64,000 bases of DNA, taken from Rubripirellula tenax (GTDB taxonomy: Bacteria > Planctomycetota > Planctomycetia > Pirellulales > Pirellulaceae). Within the stretch, counting starts at the first letter, position 1. Each line of letters opens with the position of its first letter. The DNA is taken from NCBI RefSeq assembly GCF_007860125.1, contig NZ_SJPW01000002.1, positions 746,363-810,362 of the forward strand. The letters run 5' to 3'. Below, piece by piece: positions 1 to 29,849 of this stretch. Both the position numbers and the translations under genes were made by a program. The notes under the pieces were generated by a model. It worked only from the letters and a program-made list of their open reading frames with translations. It was not told where the DNA came from and did no database searches.

Positions 1-24
1 TCGTCACAAGAAGGTTTTTTAAAA

Positions 25-132
25 TCTGGCAATATCTACTTTCGCACTGGTAGGCACTATCATCGACTCACAAAGCTTGACTACTGTGTTCGGGATGGGA
101 ACAGGTATAACCTTTGCGATATGGTCGCCAGA
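25..132 (-). rRNA. rrf: 5S ribosomal RNA
   Basis: The minus strand reads as a 5S rRNA. The ends TCTGGC and GCCAGA form the closing helix, and the conserved core CCCATCCCGAACACAG is present. About 108 nt. It lies downstream of the 23S gene in the same orientation and outside the helix that encloses the 23S. No clear intrinsic terminator is visible in the 24 bases left before the window edge. Confidence 0.93.
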
Positions 133-170
133 AAGCCATCCATACGGATGTTTCACCGTATGAATGACAA

Positions 171-185
171 GTTGTTTGGTAGTTG
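171..185 (-). repeat. 3' arm of the 23S processing helix
   Basis: GTTGTTTGGTAGTTG on the plus strand is the exact inverted partner of positions 3510-3524. The next bases 165-170 (tgacaa) also match 3529-3534 after a 4-nt bulge. In the precursor RNA the two arms would pair and loop out the 23S, as in RNase III processing stems of other bacteria. Confidence 0.75.
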
Positions 186-333
186 TCAGATCCCGAAGGA
201 TCCGTCTATTTAATTAGCGGTTCCATTCTCTTTGAAGCTGACCTGAACTTCTTCATCTTCACTTCGTTTCAGTTCAGACCACGAATTCCAACAGTACCTC
301 GACTTGCGTCAAGGGTGAGTGCGGGATATCGAT

Positions 334-3243
<2,910 letters not shown>

Positions 3244-3509
3244 ATCGAAATCCCGAACTCAGCTTTCGCTGATCCGCAATCTCGTTAGTAACCTACATTA
3301 ACGATATCACATGTGCTTGATGCTTCCCTTAGAGACACGCCCGTGAAGACGAATCAATGATGGGCACCAAGCTCGCACAGAATCCTGTTAGAATTCAATT
3401 GGCCAGCAATCTCTTGCCAGCCGCGCTTCTCAAAGAACTATTTGCTTGCCTTGAATCACAGACCGGAGTCCGTCACCCAAAGCGTCGCAGTTGCTTCTTA
3501 TTTAGATGC

Positions 3510-3524
3510 CAACTACCAAACAAC
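3510..3524 (-). repeat. 5' arm of the 23S processing helix
   Basis: CAACTACCAAACAAC on the plus strand is the exact inverted copy of 171-185. It is extended by TTGTCA (3529-3534) pairing with 165-170 across a 4-nt bulge (3525-3528), giving 21 bp in all. The arms enclose only the 23S, not the tRNAs or 5S. Confidence 0.75.
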
Positions 3525-3596
3525 CAAATTGTCAAATATCAGTTTTCCGCTATCGGCTTGTGACCGAATCGCGGAAGACGCTGTTCGTGAAAACAG

Positions 3597-3630
3597 CCGG
3601 CAAGCATCAACTTTGAGCGATGCTTGCCGG
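3597..3630. repeat. Perfect 12-bp hairpin in the rRNA spacer
   Basis: CCGGCAAGCATC and GATGCTTGCCGG pair perfectly around the 10-nt loop AACTTTGAGC. It lies within the presumed rRNA transcript between tRNA-Ala and 23S, so a processing signal is more likely than a terminator. In minus-strand orientation it is not followed by a clear U run. Confidence 0.6.
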
Positions 3631-3916
3631 TCGTTTTCTTAGCGAGGGGCGAAGAGTACCGTGGCCACTTGGCCGCGTCAACCGAGTCTTTGCAAGAAAT
3701 TCAGAATCTTTTCTTGCGGTCGTCTCGGACACGCTTGGTTTCCTTCGAGGCGGGGTTTTCGCAAATTCGGCTCGCGGACGCAAGGACCATCGAGCCATAA
3801 TTCTTGAAAAAACTTGCCTTTGTGACTCGAATCGGTTCGCTTGTTGCACAGGCGGCCGATCGAGTCAATTTTTGGTTGGATCCGAGTCCGGAAAACCGAA
3901 CCTGAAACCAACCGAG

Positions 3917-3989
3917 TGGAGGTAGACGGACTTGAACCGACGACCCTCTGCTTGCAAAGCAGATGCTCTCCCAACTGAGCTATACCCCC
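3917..3989 (-). tRNA. tRNA-Ala (UGC)
   Basis: A minus-strand cloverleaf of 73 nt. The acceptor strand GGGGGTA pairs with TACCTCC, the discriminator base is A, the D-arm is TAGCTCAGTTGGGAGAGCA, the anticodon loop TTTGCAA reads UGC, and the T-arm contains GGTTCAAGTCC. CCA is not encoded. It sits between tRNA-Ile and 23S, the classical rRNA spacer order. Confidence 0.97.
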
Positions 3990-4008
3990 GGGAATCAGGA
4001 GACAGGAT

Positions 4009-4053
4009 ACAGGTTTTAGGCAACAGGAAAAGCCCCTGTGACCTAAAACCTGT
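4009..4053. repeat. Hairpin with CCTAAAACCTGT arms between two tRNAs
   Basis: ACAGGTTTTAGG (4009-4020) and CCTAAAACCTGT (4042-4053) form a perfect 12-bp stem, with an inner ACAGG/CCTGT pairing. The right arm uses the same CCTRAAA-like heptad wording found in the ribosomal protein operon spacers of this window. It may help separate the two tRNAs during processing. Confidence 0.6.
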
Positions 4054-4072
4054 CCCCTGTTTCCTTCTTTTA

Positions 4073-4146
4073 TGGGCGTACCAGAACTCGAATCTGGGAC
4101 CTCGTCGTTATCAGCGACGCGCTCTAACCAACTGAGCTATACGCCC
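4073..4146 (-). tRNA. tRNA-Ile (GAU)
   Basis: A 74-nt minus-strand cloverleaf. Acceptor GGGCGTA pairs with TACGCCC, the discriminator is A, the anticodon stem-loop GTCGCTGATAACGAC reads GAU, and the T-arm has GATTCGAGTTC. CCA is not encoded. It is the first gene of the rRNA unit, about 50 nt downstream of the predicted transcription start. Confidence 0.97.
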
Positions 4147-9778: not shown

Positions 9779-11065
9779 ATGTCGACCGAAAACCATGCCG
9801 ACGTTTCGCAGGCCGAACCTGCGTTTCAGTTCGATTACTCGGACTCTTCTTCTTCCGATTTGATCCAGGGCTTTCGCAAAGCCAAAGCGGCCGGCAAGGG
9901 CATGCTGGGCATGTTCCTTGAGATGACCAAGCTTCGTCGCGGCATCGGCAAAATCAGCGCCGACGAATACTTTTTGTACGGCCTGTATGACGACCGTCGC
10001 TACTCGCCGGAAATCAAAAAGTCGTTCCTGGGCGGCAGCGGCCGGATGGTCGACAGCCCTTGGACCATTCTGGCCAACGACAAACCGCTGATGACGGCGA
10101 TGCTGAAAGGACTCGGTTTGCCGGTCCCCGAAACTCAAGCGATGGTCCACGCCCACCGAACGGCCGCTGGCGTCATCTCACTTCGCAATCGCGCCGATAT
10201 CGGTCGCTTTCTTCGCAACGATGCCCAATATCCGATCTTCGGCAAACCGTTCGATGCCGGGTGCAGCTTGGGGACGGCGAAAATCACCGGCTACGATTCT
10301 GCCAACGATGTTGTGGTCGTGGGTGATGAACGAATTGCCGTCGACACGTTCTCGGGCATGATCAGCAAGTTGGGACGCAACTACTTATTCCAAACGTTGC
10401 TGCTGCCCCACGAAGAAATTTCAGCTCGCATCGGTCCGTGCGTCAGCTCGGTTCGCATGTTCGTGATCAACGATTCACGTGGCTGCACGTTGCACCGGGC
10501 GGCTTGGAAAATCCCCGCTTCGGCCAACGTAGCCGACAATTTTTGGCGAGCGGGCAACATGTTGGCGGGCATCGACGCCGAATCAGGCCGTGTCATCAAG
10601 ACGATGCTGCGCAGCGAAAACGGCATCGCCCCCGTCGATGCACACCCGGGCACCGGCGTCAGTTTCACCGACATGGTATTCCCCCAGTGGGATCAAATGC
10701 GGAAGACCGTGCTGGCAGCCGCCACACAATTGACGCGTTGTCCGTTCCAAGGCTGGGACGTCGCGCTGACCGATCAGGGACCGATCTTGGTCGAATTGGA
10801 AGCCGACGGTGGCAACCCGATCATGGAACAACTCTGCTTCGAAAGTGGCTTGTTGGACGCGAGATATCTAAACGCCGTCGCCGAACACAAAGCGTGGGAG
10901 AAGGACGGACGCAAACCGGTCTCGGTCGTTAATCTTGATGATGGGGTCCACATCGAAGATGACGCGTCCGCCGCAAACGCGGCACCCCAGCAGGCGAATC
11001 CGGCTTCGCCCGTGATCGCGCCGATCACCGTCACACCCGTCGTCTCAAACCATTCGGTCGTGTAG
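9779..11065 (+). CDS. ATP-grasp ligase of the sugar-transfer/glutamate-ligase-like type
   Basis: A protein of 428 residues; ATG 9779 follows AGGA at 8 nt. The ATP-grasp core is visible: IFGKPFDAGCSLG (about residues 138-150, lysine for ATP), LFQTLLLPHEEI, CVSSVRMFVI and GWDVALTDQGPILVELEADG near residues 310-330, which supplies acidic metal ligands. The VSSVRMF, HPGTG and GWD pattern resembles the sugar-transfer-associated ATP-grasp family (PF14397). Such enzymes join a carboxylate to an amine using ATP. The last base of its TAG is the first base of the GTG of the next gene, so the two are translationally coupled. The substrate is unknown. Confidence 0.8.
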   Translation: MSTENHADVSQAEPAFQFDYSDSSSSDLIQGFRKAKAAGKGMLGMFLEMTKLRRGIGKISADEYFLYGLYDDRRYSPEIKKSFLGGSGRMVDSPWTILANDKPLMTAMLKGLGLPVPETQAMVHAHRTAAGVISLRNRADIGRFLRNDAQYPIFGKPFDAGCSLGTAKITGYDSANDVVVVGDERIAVDTFSGMISKLGRNYLFQTLLLPHEEISARIGPCVSSVRMFVINDSRGCTLHRAAWKIPASANVADNFWRAGNMLAGIDAESGRVIKTMLRSENGIAPVDAHPGTGVSFTDMVFPQWDQMRKTVLAAATQLTRCPFQGWDVALTDQGPILVELEADGGNPIMEQLCFESGLLDARYLNAVAEHKAWEKDGRKPVSVVNLDDGVHIEDDASAANAAPQQANPASPVIAPITVTPVVSNHSVV

Positions 11066-12582
11066 TGACGCGATTCGCCCCATCGTCGATGCTGCGTGGT
11101 GACACCACGTGGCACGGCGAATCCTATGAAACGTTGGCCACCACGGGCAGCGATCGACGGCTGATTCCCGGCCCCGACGGATCCAACCCGTACGGCGCCG
11201 GTGTCGTGCCCGATGGCGCCATGCCGTTGGGGTCCTGTACTTGTTCGTCACCTTCGTGGCGAGCGGTCAAGGCATCACGACGCACGCTCGAAAAATTGAA
11301 GCAATCGGCCGACCCGAAGCAAACCGGATCCCAGATTTTGTCGGACGTACGAGCGACGTTGCGGCGATGTTTGCAGTTGTCACCATCCACCGACATCGCA
11401 TTAACGCCCTCCGGCACAGACGTCGAACTATTGCCGTTGGCGGTGATGGCGTCGAACAGCGATTGCCGGATCACCAACATTATCGTCGGCGCCGGCGAAG
11501 TCGGCAGCGGCACATCGATGGCAGCATCGGGATGCCACGCGGACACGTTGCTGCCCGACGGAAGCGTCGCGGTTCGCGGCGCGGCGGTGAACCGCTTGTT
11601 GGCTGGCCGAGTCGATGTGCGATCGATTCCGATCCGCGATCCCTCGGGCGAACCGTTGTCGATGATCGAGATCGACGACCGGGTGACTGCCAACGTGATT
11701 GAAGCCGCATCGCATGGCCATCGCGTGTTGGTTCACTTGGTCGCGCACAGCAAAACCGGCATCCACGCACCGTCGGTGTCGCTGATCGATCGCTTGAAGC
11801 GGACCCTGGGCGACCAAGTGATGTTGGTCGTCGATGCTGCGCAGGGACGGCTGGCGGCCGATGCGTATCAAGACGCACTCGATCGCGGGTGTTGGGTGTC
11901 CGTCACGGGATCGAAGTTTTTTGGCGGCGCGCCGTTTGCCGGAGCACTCCTGGCACCGTCCGGCGTCGACGCGTCGGCGATTCGCACTTGTCCGGCAGAA
12001 TTGGCAAGTTACTTTTGTCGCGGCAGTTTGCCCGAGCGATGGGACGTGAACTTCGGAGCCAACGACGATTGGATGAACGTCGGCTTGTTGATTCGATGGG
12101 CAGGCGCAGCGGCTGAAATCGAGTCTTTTTTCAACATCCCGCCGACGACTCGCCAGAGGATTGCGGACCGGTTCCGTGTTGCTGTCCGCGAAAATTTCTA
12201 CGGCTCGAATTCCGTTGGGCTGTTGGAGCCGTTTGTGGACATCGACGTTTTGCCCGGCATTGTGGACGGTCCGACCGTGTTTTCGTTGGAATTTCCGGGC
12301 GAGAACAGCGATTCGCTCAAGTCGTTGCACCGGAGCCTTGTGCGGGATGGCTGGTATCTGGGCCAGCCCGTCGCAATCGGCGGAGGCCGCAACGTGCTTC
12401 GGGTCGCACTGGGTGCCCCCTTGATGATTGACGTGGCCAACGGCGACGATGGGGATTCAGGCCTAACGTCGCGGCTTGCCATAATGGCCGAACGGATTGA
12501 CGCCTTGGGCGATTCGGTCCGTTGCCACCGATCGAGCCGATTGGCTGCTCGTTCGCGATCCAAGGTGTCATCCAACCCATGA
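11065..12582 (+). CDS. PLP-dependent aminotransferase-like protein (class V type)
   Basis: A protein of 505 residues in the fold-type I PLP family. TPSGTDVELLPL (114-125) fits the phosphate-binding turn, VVDAAQGR (255-262) contains the aspartate that contacts the pyridine nitrogen, and VSVTGSKFFGGAP (278-290) has the Schiff-base lysine K284. The order resembles class V aminotransferases, cysteine desulfurases and related lyases; the exact reaction cannot be told. It starts with GTG inside the stop of the ATP-grasp gene (TAGTG) and is followed 8 nt later by a decarboxylase-like gene, so the three very probably serve one pathway. An extended N-terminus of about 100 residues lacks a family match that I recognise. 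Confidence 0.75.
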   Translation: MTRFAPSSMLRGDTTWHGESYETLATTGSDRRLIPGPDGSNPYGAGVVPDGAMPLGSCTCSSPSWRAVKASRRTLEKLKQSADPKQTGSQILSDVRATLRRCLQLSPSTDIALTPSGTDVELLPLAVMASNSDCRITNIIVGAGEVGSGTSMAASGCHADTLLPDGSVAVRGAAVNRLLAGRVDVRSIPIRDPSGEPLSMIEIDDRVTANVIEAASHGHRVLVHLVAHSKTGIHAPSVSLIDRLKRTLGDQVMLVVDAAQGRLAADAYQDALDRGCWVSVTGSKFFGGAPFAGALLAPSGVDASAIRTCPAELASYFCRGSLPERWDVNFGANDDWMNVGLLIRWAGAAAEIESFFNIPPTTRQRIADRFRVAVRENFYGSNSVGLLEPFVDIDVLPGIVDGPTVFSLEFPGENSDSLKSLHRSLVRDGWYLGQPVAIGGGRNVLRVALGAPLMIDVANGDDGDSGLTSRLAIMAERIDALGDSVRCHRSSRLAARSRSKVSSNP

Positions 12583-12590
12583 CTTAGACG

Positions 12591-13913
12591 ATGAGTGCAT
12601 TTCATCAACGAATTTCACCGCCACAGATCGAATCGATCTTCGCGAAATTGGCGTCGGAGGGCTTTCTGGGTGACGATGTCAAGTCTGTCATCGTGCATGA
12701 CGTTGCTCGGATGCAGCAGCGAATCGCGATGTTGCAGGACGCTTTTCCGGATGGCACGCTGCACGCGATTGCGATCAAGGCGAACCCCGTCGTCGAAATT
12801 TTGCGTGCGGCCGTGGACGCGGGCGCGGGCTTGGAAGCCGCCAGCATCGAAGAGGTGACGTTGGCATTGGCGGCGGGGTGTCCGCCCGATCGAATCATCT
12901 TTGATTCGCCAGCCAAGACGGTTGCCGAAATCCGCCAGACGCTCGAGCGGGGCATTCACGTGAACGTCGACAACTTCGACGAACTTGACCGTGTGGCTCT
13001 GATTTTGAAGGCATCGCCTTCGGATGCAAAGCCGACGTCAACCATCGGTCTGCGCGTCACGCCCGAGGTCGGCGCGGGCTCGATCTCGCACACCAGCGTG
13101 GGCAATCGCGGGTCAAAGTTTGGCGTGTCAATCTCGCGCGATCGAGAACAAATTTTGGCCGCGTTCGCGCGGCACGCGTGGCTTGTGGGGCTGCACATCC
13201 ACGTCGGTTCGCAAGGTTGCCCGATGGAACAGTTGTGCGACGCGGCCGAGAAAATCGAATCACTTCGACAAGAAATTCAATCGCACACCGGCCGCGCCGT
13301 CCCGGTCGTCGACATCGGTGGCGGATTGCCCGCCCCTTACGACGACGATCATCAACCGGCGTCGCCCGATGCCTACGCCGCCGAACTGGGTCGCCGAGTC
13401 CCGACGCTTTTCGACGGCAACGTTCGCTTGGTCACCGAATTCGGCCGCAGTGTCCAGGCCGGGTGCGGGCTGGCGCTCAGCCGCGTCGAATATGTGCGGG
13501 ATTTACCAGCCGGCGACGCGGGGGAAGCCACGTGCATGGCCGTGATTCACTTGGGCGCCGATTTCTTGGTCCGTCCGGTGTACCGGCCACAGGACTGGTC
13601 GCACGAATACGCAGTGCTGGATGCGTCGGGACGCCTGCGTGATGAACCCGACGATCGCATCAGCATCGGTGGCCCGTTGTGTTTCGGCGGCGACATTCCG
13701 GCTCGCAACGTTGCGATGCCTCGCCCCCGAGTGGGCGACTGGATCGCGATCCGCGATTGCGGCGCGTACACGCTTAGCATGTGGTCGCGCCATTGCAGCC
13801 GCGGGATCCCCGACGTGATCGGGTACGACGGCGAAGCAAGGTCGACCCGATTGTTGCGAGCGGCGGAAAGCCCTGGCGGCATCGCCCGGTTTTGGTCGGC
13901 GGGCGAAATTTAG
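12591..13913 (+). CDS. Type III PLP decarboxylase, diaminopimelate decarboxylase-like
   Basis: A protein of 440 residues with the alanine-racemase/decarboxylase fold. AIKANP (61-66) holds the PLP lysine K63, HIHVGSQG (202-209), the glycine loop DIGGGLPAPY (241-250), EFGRS (283-287), GPLCFGGD (361-368) and CGAYT (390-394) follow the LysA order. Two motifs differ from standard LysA: EFGR in place of E-P-G-R, and CFGGD in place of the usual CESGD. This suggests a substrate other than meso-diaminopimelate. It closes the cassette begun at 9779, so it is unlikely to be the housekeeping lysine gene. No symbol is given for that reason. Confidence 0.83.
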   Translation: MSAFHQRISPPQIESIFAKLASEGFLGDDVKSVIVHDVARMQQRIAMLQDAFPDGTLHAIAIKANPVVEILRAAVDAGAGLEAASIEEVTLALAAGCPPDRIIFDSPAKTVAEIRQTLERGIHVNVDNFDELDRVALILKASPSDAKPTSTIGLRVTPEVGAGSISHTSVGNRGSKFGVSISRDREQILAAFARHAWLVGLHIHVGSQGCPMEQLCDAAEKIESLRQEIQSHTGRAVPVVDIGGGLPAPYDDDHQPASPDAYAAELGRRVPTLFDGNVRLVTEFGRSVQAGCGLALSRVEYVRDLPAGDAGEATCMAVIHLGADFLVRPVYRPQDWSHEYAVLDASGRLRDEPDDRISIGGPLCFGGDIPARNVAMPRPRVGDWIAIRDCGAYTLSMWSRHCSRGIPDVIGYDGEARSTRLLRAAESPGGIARFWSAGEI

Positions 13914-29588: not shown

Positions 29589-29780
29589 GCCGCGTAGCGG
29601 CAACGGAAGGTAGCCTGGGGCGAAAGCCCCAGGAAAATAAAATACTCGCGAATTTTAGCTGCGTAGCAGCGGCGGATGGTATCCAGCATCCAATCCGTCG
29701 CCCCTACGGGGCTTTCGATCGGCGCGATTCAGGCACCAAGGGCTTGCGCCCCTGGCTACCATCCACTGTCGCTACGCGAC
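29589..29780. repeat. REP cluster beside the RAYT gene (family B)
   Basis: Six hairpins in 190 bp. Two form an inverted pair: GTAG followed by CCTGGGGC-GAAA-GCCCCAGG at 29610-29633 (plus strand) and GTAG followed by CCAGGGGC-GCAA-GCCCTTGG at 29759-29736 (minus strand). Small palindromes of the type GCCGC-GTA-GCGGC lie at 29589-29601, 29658-29670, 29700-29712 and 29768-29780. The GTAG head plus imperfect hairpin is the known signature of REP elements moved by RAYT proteins. Confidence 0.85.
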
Positions 29781-29849
29781 TAAATTCCCTTGCCGCTACA
29801 CGTCTGTTCACACGTGTCCTTATTCGACCAATGGGCCGAGGTGGGCGCA

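Follow-up and report, generated by a model that had tools for sequence, protein, structure and literature searches.

In a 64,000-nucleotide stretch of the genome of the planctomycete Rubripirellula tenax (contig NZ_SJPW01000002.1, positions 746,363 to 810,362; hereafter 'the window'), three intact genes on the forward strand form a compact cassette that recurs as a conserved biosynthetic unit in other bacteria. The first gene encodes an ATP-grasp ligase (9779-11065; ATG at 9779, TAG at 11063-11065; 428 amino acids), the second a pyridoxal 5'-phosphate (PLP) enzyme (11065-12582; GTG start at 11065; 505 amino acids), and the third a type III PLP decarboxylase (12591-13913; ATG at 12591; 440 amino acids). 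Their open reading frame (ORF) coordinates give a 1-nucleotide overlap followed by an 8-nucleotide gap, bearing out the tight coupling described in an earlier sequence-only reading of this DNA. That reading saw in the three enzymes a hitherto undescribed system by which an amino acid or amine would be made, modified and joined, and the evidence presented here supports it. We further propose, tentatively and at somewhat less than an even chance, that an acidic amino acid is the source of the amine produced and attached by the cassette, and that this amine is most likely taurine. The existence of a conserved biosynthetic unit is the strongest part of this interpretation. The identity of the product is the weakest, as it comes from gene linkage in two actinobacterial lineages.

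Conservation of the unit was surveyed first within the family of the host. With an ortholog threshold of E <= 1e-60, the decarboxylase is present in 7 of 241 family genomes, its own included. The PLP gene lies directly upstream in all seven and the ATP-grasp gene precedes it in six; in the seventh, a Mariniblastus genome (L119; L numbers denote loci and G numbers genomes), the contig ends about 200 nucleotides past the PLP match. The genes are thus not scattered in relatives, an outcome that would have counted heavily against the original proposal. The three-gene order is repeated in other planctomycete genera and at the Pseudomonadota loci L030 and L032. The PLP gene was absent from the 21 other genomes of the same genus that were searched. 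Wider looks returned, with the query counted, 2 positive genomes among 99 relatives, 3 among 392 of the phylum, 2 among 396 of the Phytoactinopolyspora phylum, 5 among 22 of the Phytoactinopolyspora family and 1 among 221 of the Ilumatobacter family. Because the unit is so rare, statistics on its neighbourhoods are based on few cases. When GTDB contigs were scanned with a single sequence, no relative was confirmed, and an alignment of two sequences used as the query yielded 35 PLP loci from Planctomycetota, Gemmatimonadota, Myxococcota, Actinomycetota, Pseudomonadota, Rhodothermota, Thermodesulfobacteriota, Acidobacteriota, SAR324 and one archaeon (L041). The family therefore occurs sporadically, in eight named bacterial phyla, in SAR324 and in a single archaeon.

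A tree of the PLP family was built from 34 rows, comprising the window protein and 33 of the 35 loci (the near-copies L037 and L038 were left out). One branch (97/98) splits off 20 rows, 19 of which carry a type III decarboxylase gene at the locus. In 17 of these 19 the decarboxylase gene follows the PLP gene directly on the same strand, and in five of those 17, the archaeal L041 among them, the two ORFs as called overlap by 4 nucleotides. The two genes are divergent at L023, and a 230-amino-acid ORF separates them at L026. Pairwise distances between PLP proteins correlate with those between decarboxylases (r = 0.82 over 18 loci; r = 0.78 over 17 loci once the archaeon is excluded; in neither case did any of 2000 shuffles reach the observed value), a correlation to which shared ancestry of the hosts may contribute. 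Among 21 genomes examined, 13 have a PLP gene that falls on the type III side, and 12 of these hold a decarboxylase ortholog (39-62% identity); none of the eight with a PLP gene on the other side holds one, their matches reaching at most 34% identity. The recurrence of the three genes and the distance correlation exceed chance, and the core of the unit is the PLP-decarboxylase pair. The sole exception on the type III side, L021, has no decarboxylase at the locus and no ortholog in its genome (G886). In a comparison of five planctomycete loci, the cassette genes were the only gene families that the loci had in common.

The ATP-grasp protein matches Pfam family PF14397 ('sugar-transfer associated ATP-grasp') at E 2e-26, its 93.2 bits standing clearly above the gathering cut-off of 31.4, so that the initial assignment holds; this family is not named in any of the open-licence literature searched. 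Its AlphaFold model has a predicted local distance difference test score (pLDDT) of 76.5, and the best match in a profile search of the PDB, to cyanophycin synthase, is weak (E 0.043). The same ATP-grasp gene also lies upstream of the PLP gene at L018, L019, L020, L040, L117 and L118. Relatives of the protein are present at 9 of the 19 type III loci (the window, L018, L019, L020, L040, L024, L030, L031 and L032), a count to which loci outside Planctomycetota contribute 4 of 13 (L024, L030, L031 and L032). The L024 relative is about 4 kb off on the opposite strand, with 26% identity, and the contig of L017 stops too early to tell. Other loci have different ATP-grasp ligases, nonribosomal peptide synthetases (NRPSs) or transporters. 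At L031 (6953-8087, forward strand), on a metagenome-assembled contig, the relative is split across two reading frames, reflecting either a broken gene or an assembly error. Residues 339-341 (window 10793-10801) read E-x-E in all five planctomycete rows versus E-x-N in L030 and L032, the latter being presumably the ATP-grasp metal-binding motif.

The decarboxylase carries both Pfam domains of the ornithine/diaminopimelate (DAP)/arginine decarboxylases (PF02784, E 2e-45; PF00278, E 1e-9). Its best NCBIfam model is TIGR01048 (lysA) and its best PDB sequence matches are LysA enzymes, as would suit a LysA serving ordinary lysine biosynthesis. We consider that explanation very improbable. The score of 214.0 bits lies below the model cut-off of 297.9, and the host genome (8.0 Mb, 99.9% complete) has a better lysA match elsewhere, at positions 223916-225124 of contig C3 (291.5 versus 213.4 bits), which itself falls slightly below that cut-off. 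The worry that the cassette might hold the only lysA gene of the genome is thereby removed. A related genome (G057) likewise holds a better lysA match (283.1 bits), and of the 12 genomes with an ortholog, 10 also have a LysA-like match (25-36% identity, the status being judged by identity alone). Neither of the other two, G889 with two ortholog copies and G896 with one match, has a LysA-like match among those listed. Moreover, 234 of the 241 family genomes are without an ortholog at the threshold given above, and the amine-binding Glu of LysA is lost in all 18 aligned orthologs. On these scores and motifs the protein is a predicted type III (alanine-racemase fold) decarboxylase that is related to LysA but is not LysA. 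The exosortase-associated decarboxylase model TIGR03099 was also tried and rejected (147 bits versus a cut-off of 478.45). The second copy in G889, a genome of Rhodothermales, lies about 20 kb from the first (L063, 13833-15281, reverse strand), with no PLP relative in the fetched stretch.

Departures from LysA at two motifs had been noticed from the window alone, and both recur across the 18 aligned orthologs, a set that includes the window's own protein (a further fragment exists in L032). EFGR (13437-13448, forward strand, as are the residues that follow) is present in 18 of 18, where Brucella and Aquifex LysA have EPGR. Cys364-Phe365 (13680-13685), which begins the CFGGD motif at 13680, is Cys-Phe in 17 orthologs and Cys-Tyr in one, where LysA has Cys-Glu. 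Arg328 (13572-13574), aligned with the arginine of the LysA LIRP motif that contacts the distal carboxylate, is Arg in all 18. Arg328 and Phe365 were placed by aligning the protein with the LysA enzymes of Brucella and Aquifex in phmmer; in a MAFFT alignment the planctomycete LysA rows are shifted around the Arg328 position. LysA (TIGR01048; 3vab, 2p3e) and the cassette enzyme therefore have in common the family domains, the PLP lysine, the catalytic Cys before the changed residue and the distal-carboxylate Arg, whereas LysA has EPGR and CETGD in place of EFGR and CF(G/S/A)GD (CYNGD in L041).

The consequences for substrate choice can be gauged from a Thermotoga DAP decarboxylase (DAPDC). The portions consulted of the study of this enzyme report that Arg249 and Arg285 bind the distal carboxylate, that Glu315 binds the amino group at the same end, that replacing Glu315 moves activity to amino acids without a distal amino group, that the E315F variant accepts the hydrophobic D-amino acids D-Phe and D-norleucine, and that activity drops with shorter acidic substrates (PMC8277567). 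Read from the motifs, Arg328 and Phe365 would correspond to Thermotoga Arg285 and Glu315. Because the Arg is kept and the Glu is replaced by Phe or Tyr, the pocket would fit a substrate that carries an anionic group, and no amine, at its distal end; such a substrate would probably be acidic and might be a sulfonate.

Up to E 0.1, neither Pfam nor NCBIfam contains a model that matches the PLP enzyme, which also has no meaningful sequence match in the PDB. Nine relatives likewise have no Pfam match, and PF00266 is hit directly by neither the window protein nor these nine. With library matches lacking, the class-V-like label given to this protein by the sequence-only reading needed profile and fold evidence, and both lines favour it. 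When a profile of 34 relatives was compared with 15 class V enzymes by hhalign, the match (94.95% probability, E 4.1e-8) aligned Lys284 and Asp257 with the class V Schiff-base lysine and pyridine-binding Asp, which we take to be the roles of those counterparts. Lys284 (11914-11916, forward strand) is invariant in all 34 rows, as are Arg191, Lys230, Arg262, Arg344 and Arg446. A profile search of the PDB returned weak matches only (NifS-like, E 0.013). The AlphaFold model is of high quality (pLDDT 89.7; predicted template modelling (TM) score 0.91), and its best PDB folds are the carbon-sulfoxide lyases 8iry and 8irk (E 2e-12, TM 0.50/0.65, 17% identity). Aromatic amino acid decarboxylases and serine palmitoyltransferase follow close behind, and Egt2 (5uts, 5v12), NifS and IscS are within the top 50; all 50 matches listed are, we take it, fold type I enzymes. 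On this evidence the enzyme is a fold type I protein, whereas the model does not decide its reaction. Placement among the group II decarboxylases by sequence was rejected, since profile comparison gave only 0.5%, and yet enzymes of that type are among the fold neighbours of the model. Relative to the 8iry-type lyases the PLP enzyme has at most 17% identity and is about 130 residues longer than 8iry; unlike these lyases and NifS/IscS, it has a conserved N-terminal S-x-T-x-S stretch and lacks any Pfam or NCBIfam match.

These structural neighbours, together with the profile match to class V enzymes, would also suit a C-S lyase or desulfurase of the Egt2/NifS kind. Such an enzyme would free sulfur from a cysteine derivative, and the decarboxylase would act on the amino acid left behind, or on a related one, to give a thiol or a plain amine. 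We give this explanation only a slim chance, as the sulfite-making gene that shares an operon with the PLP gene in some actinobacteria would be an odd companion for a sulfur-releasing enzyme.

That gene came to light across the 97/98 branch from the window protein, where group II decarboxylases stand beside the PLP gene at five Jiangellaceae loci (L034, L036, L037, L038 and L108) and at L039/L053 and L054/L064; L045 was assigned to this set by clustering alone. At the Phytoactinopolyspora loci L036, L037 and L038, a group II decarboxylase gene, the PLP gene and a gene for an adenylyl-sulfate/phosphoadenylyl-sulfate (APS/PAPS) reductase form one run with overlaps of 4-13 nucleotides, and the reductase copies of L036 and L037 have the CC, CxxC and ECGIH signatures. 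On the type III side, Ilumatobacter nonamiensis (L024) has a reductase in one cluster with the PLP gene and a type III decarboxylase gene, along with ATP-grasp genes, genes for enolase/ATP-grasp fusions, an asparagine-synthase-like gene and a gene for a weakly glycosyltransferase-like protein. The L037 and L024 reductases pass NF002537 (phosphoadenylyl-sulfate reductase) with 247.5 and 212.2 bits against a cut-off of 154. Because an additional PF01507 gene of the reductase type lies elsewhere in each of these genomes (on C21 in G485, with 68% identity to the copy in the cluster, and on C370 in G888), the cluster reductase looks like a dedicated source of sulfite. Two PF01507 genes each were found in G000, G057, G883, G887 and G890, which from match length we take as one CysD and one CysH, and none in G889.

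The L024 and Jiangellaceae clusters have further genes in common. The weakly glycosyltransferase-like protein of L024 recurs at L036-L038 (42-43% identity), and enolase/ATP-grasp fusions are present at all five Jiangellaceae loci, with roughly 30-40% identity to the L024 fusions where compared. The PLP proteins of L024 and Phytoactinopolyspora fall on opposite sides of the 97/98 branch, and their decarboxylases come from unrelated families. Judged by gene content, the two look like one kind of cluster in which the decarboxylase has been exchanged. The fusions themselves are large proteins combining an enolase-superfamily part with a cyanophycin-synthetase-like ATP-grasp part (L036, 13249-15801, and L038, 16968-20306, both reverse strand; L024, 12743-15382 and 16599-19445, forward strand). 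In L036 and L038 the enolase part is weak and a C-terminal acylphosphatase is present, and several clusters have more than one copy.

The pathway that we propose would proceed in three steps. The PLP enzyme would form an enzyme-bound aminoacrylate from a derivative of serine or of cysteine, and sulfite would be added at C-beta to yield L-cysteate or a similar sulfonate amino acid. The type III decarboxylase would then strip the alpha-carboxyl group to give taurine. Finally, the ATP-grasp enzyme would activate a carboxylate and form an amide with the new amine, the target being a peptide, a surface sugar acid or a small metabolite. The data show three intact genes in a conserved order, inheritance of the PLP enzyme and the decarboxylase together, the fold and conserved lysine of the former, a LysA-type pocket in the latter that has kept its distal anion site and lost its distal amine site, and extra APS/PAPS reductase genes in related clusters; the reactions themselves, the sulfonate and the acceptor are inferred. 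A sulfite supply, a C-S-lyase-like PLP enzyme with several invariant basic residues, a decarboxylase pocket suited to an acidic amino acid, and a ligase suggest a cysteate synthase, a cysteate decarboxylase and a taurine ligase. The ligase step is further backed by the ATP-grasp relatives at 9 of the 19 type III loci and by the other ATP-grasp proteins encoded at L024, the Jiangellaceae loci and L064. We count the five invariant Arg and Lys residues listed above beside Lys284 as favouring anionic ligands, and the carbon-sulfoxide lyases among the best predicted folds as favouring carbon-sulfur chemistry. SDF symporters (glutamate/aspartate or C4-dicarboxylate type) are likewise counted for an acidic substrate; they lie beside the PLP-decarboxylase pair at L022 and L025, which are of one lineage, and beside the PLP gene at L044, with GltP (L022) and DctA (L044) as best models, below the NCBIfam cut-offs.

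Several observations weigh against a taurine product. With one query and E <= 1e-5, the link to a reductase was seen at 4 of the 35 loci and in two lineages only, and none was found at the planctomycete loci; both PF01507 genes of the host genome are on other contigs. The reductase is also missing at 2 of the 5 Jiangellaceae loci (L034/L110 and L108). Where the reductase is absent from the locus, housekeeping sulfite would have to serve. At L024 the reductase is about 9 kb away, and because it is next to an epimerase-type gene its sulfite could serve a sugar. This epimerase weakly resembles UDP-sulfoquinovose synthase among many enzymes (35.2 bits, cut-off 575); reading it as that synthase was rejected, as the score also falls below those for dTDP-glucose dehydratase and others. 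Of the 14 PLP rows opposite the type III group, 10 have no identified decarboxylase beside them in the subset of neighbours scanned. The group II enzymes of L037 and L064 score best as tyrosine decarboxylase MfnA (236 bits, NCBIfam cut-off 299) and L-2,4-diaminobutyrate decarboxylase (192 bits, cut-off 900), rather than as decarboxylases of cysteate or cysteine sulfinate. The fold match of the PLP enzyme is moderate, with decarboxylases and serine palmitoyltransferase near at hand, and for a binding protein gene near the L044 PLP gene the best-scoring model is a lysine/arginine/ornithine binder. The centre at which LysA enzymes act has the D configuration. Finally, cysteate is not favoured by the Thermotoga precedent, at least as far as the sections consulted go, because E315F took hydrophobic D-amino acids and short acids were poor substrates (PMC8277567).

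We consider an alternative without any sulfonate unlikely but a serious contender. The PLP enzyme would in that case be an aminotransferase or lyase making another acidic amino acid, with a carboxylate or phosphate side chain, which would be decarboxylated to an omega-amino acid and coupled by the ATP-grasp ligase, while the reductases of the actinobacterial clusters would serve another step. The retained distal-carboxylate Arg and the nearby SDF symporters agree with this scheme, as does the failure to detect an APS/PAPS reductase beside the planctomycete loci, and similarity to class V enzymes suits aminotransferases too. It leaves unexplained why an extra reductase gene overlaps the PLP gene at L036-L038 and appears again at L024, the observation from which the taurine proposal draws its sulfite.

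Genes around the pair offer hints about the acceptor. At L024 and the Jiangellaceae loci, peptide ligases with an ATP-grasp part resembling cyanophycin synthetase appear to point to a peptide-like partner. L031, L035 and L043 are glycan loci and would point to a glycan. At L030 (8673-19428, forward strand), genes for the ATP-grasp ligase, the PLP enzyme, the decarboxylase, a two-module NRPS with a thioesterase and a phosphopantetheinyl transferase form one run, which seems to point to an NRPS product. One TAA is listed inside the decarboxylase match in the search of this genome (G891), and the L030 ORF used here is open.

The L030 run also fits a unit that makes a non-proteinogenic building block for peptide natural products, one whose side chain might be hydrophobic or D-configured. 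Divergent genes beside the PLP gene, for a Pls/PosA NRPS at L042 and an AMP-binding enzyme at L045, are consistent with this, as is the acceptance of D-Phe and D-norleucine by E315F DAPDC in the parts of that study used here (PMC8277567). We allow this possibility a small chance. Against it, the subset of neighbours scanned contained NRPS-type genes at 3 of the 35 loci, and outside the cassette the five planctomycete loci compared above have no gene family in common.

The surroundings of the cassette in the window are less informative. Upstream, one gene encodes a PEP-CTERM-like protein, matched below the Pfam cut-off, and another encodes a glucose/sorbosone dehydrogenase-like protein; a gene for a Band 7 protein lies downstream. 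The scanned neighbours include no pathway gene, in agreement with the earlier statement that none adjoins the cassette. Elsewhere, two Acido-Lenti-1 RNAs (RF01687; 29588-29633, reverse strand, 40.0 bits, and 29736-29781, forward strand, 41.3 bits; gathering score 37) lie in opposite orientation with about 100 nucleotides between them, just ahead of a 1742-amino-acid ORF. The edge of the window (24-4146, reverse strand) is occupied by 5S rRNA, 23S rRNA and two tRNA genes.

Known routes to taurine use a cysteine sulfinate or cysteate decarboxylase of group II and, in archaea, a cysteate synthase of fold type II. A study of a Yarrowia decarboxylase is reportedly one publication on such a route. 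The proposed pathway would have the intermediates cysteate and taurine in common with these systems, whereas its enzymes would be a type III decarboxylase and a class-V-like fold type I protein. A search of open-licence literature on taurine and cysteate routes, on the ATP-grasp family and on the gene combination revealed nothing that we recognised as this unit. The cassette enzymes belong to known superfamilies, with a PLP family that has no Pfam or NCBIfam model and a gene combination not found in that literature. A methylofuran-type cluster was considered and rejected on the portion of the literature consulted. A precedent for taurine on a bacterial surface glycopeptide is provided by the taurine-capped flagellar glycan of Clostridioides difficile, as described in the sections consulted of its report (PMC5207245); no kinship between its genes and the cassette is claimed.

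A bolder form of the proposal, which we regard as possible but rather doubtful, is that these genes constitute a sulfite-dependent route, separate from those already known, to taurine or a closely related sulfonated amine. Such a route would employ a class-V-like fold type I cysteate synthase, interchangeable decarboxylases (type III in the window, group II at other loci) and an ATP-grasp ligase that would cap a metabolite or a polymer of the cell surface with the amine, and would have been transferred as a unit from phylum to phylum and to an archaeon. If so, planctomycetes, actinobacteria and myxobacteria would gain a dedicated route to sulfonated amines, and the origin of bacterial taurine would become directly testable with two purified enzymes. 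The PLP family, missing from Pfam and NCBIfam, is rare but intact across eight phyla, SAR324 and an archaeon. Even if its product proves not to be a sulfonate, the cassette would represent an uncharacterised amine-building module that is also found beside NRPS, peptide-ligase and surface-sugar genes.

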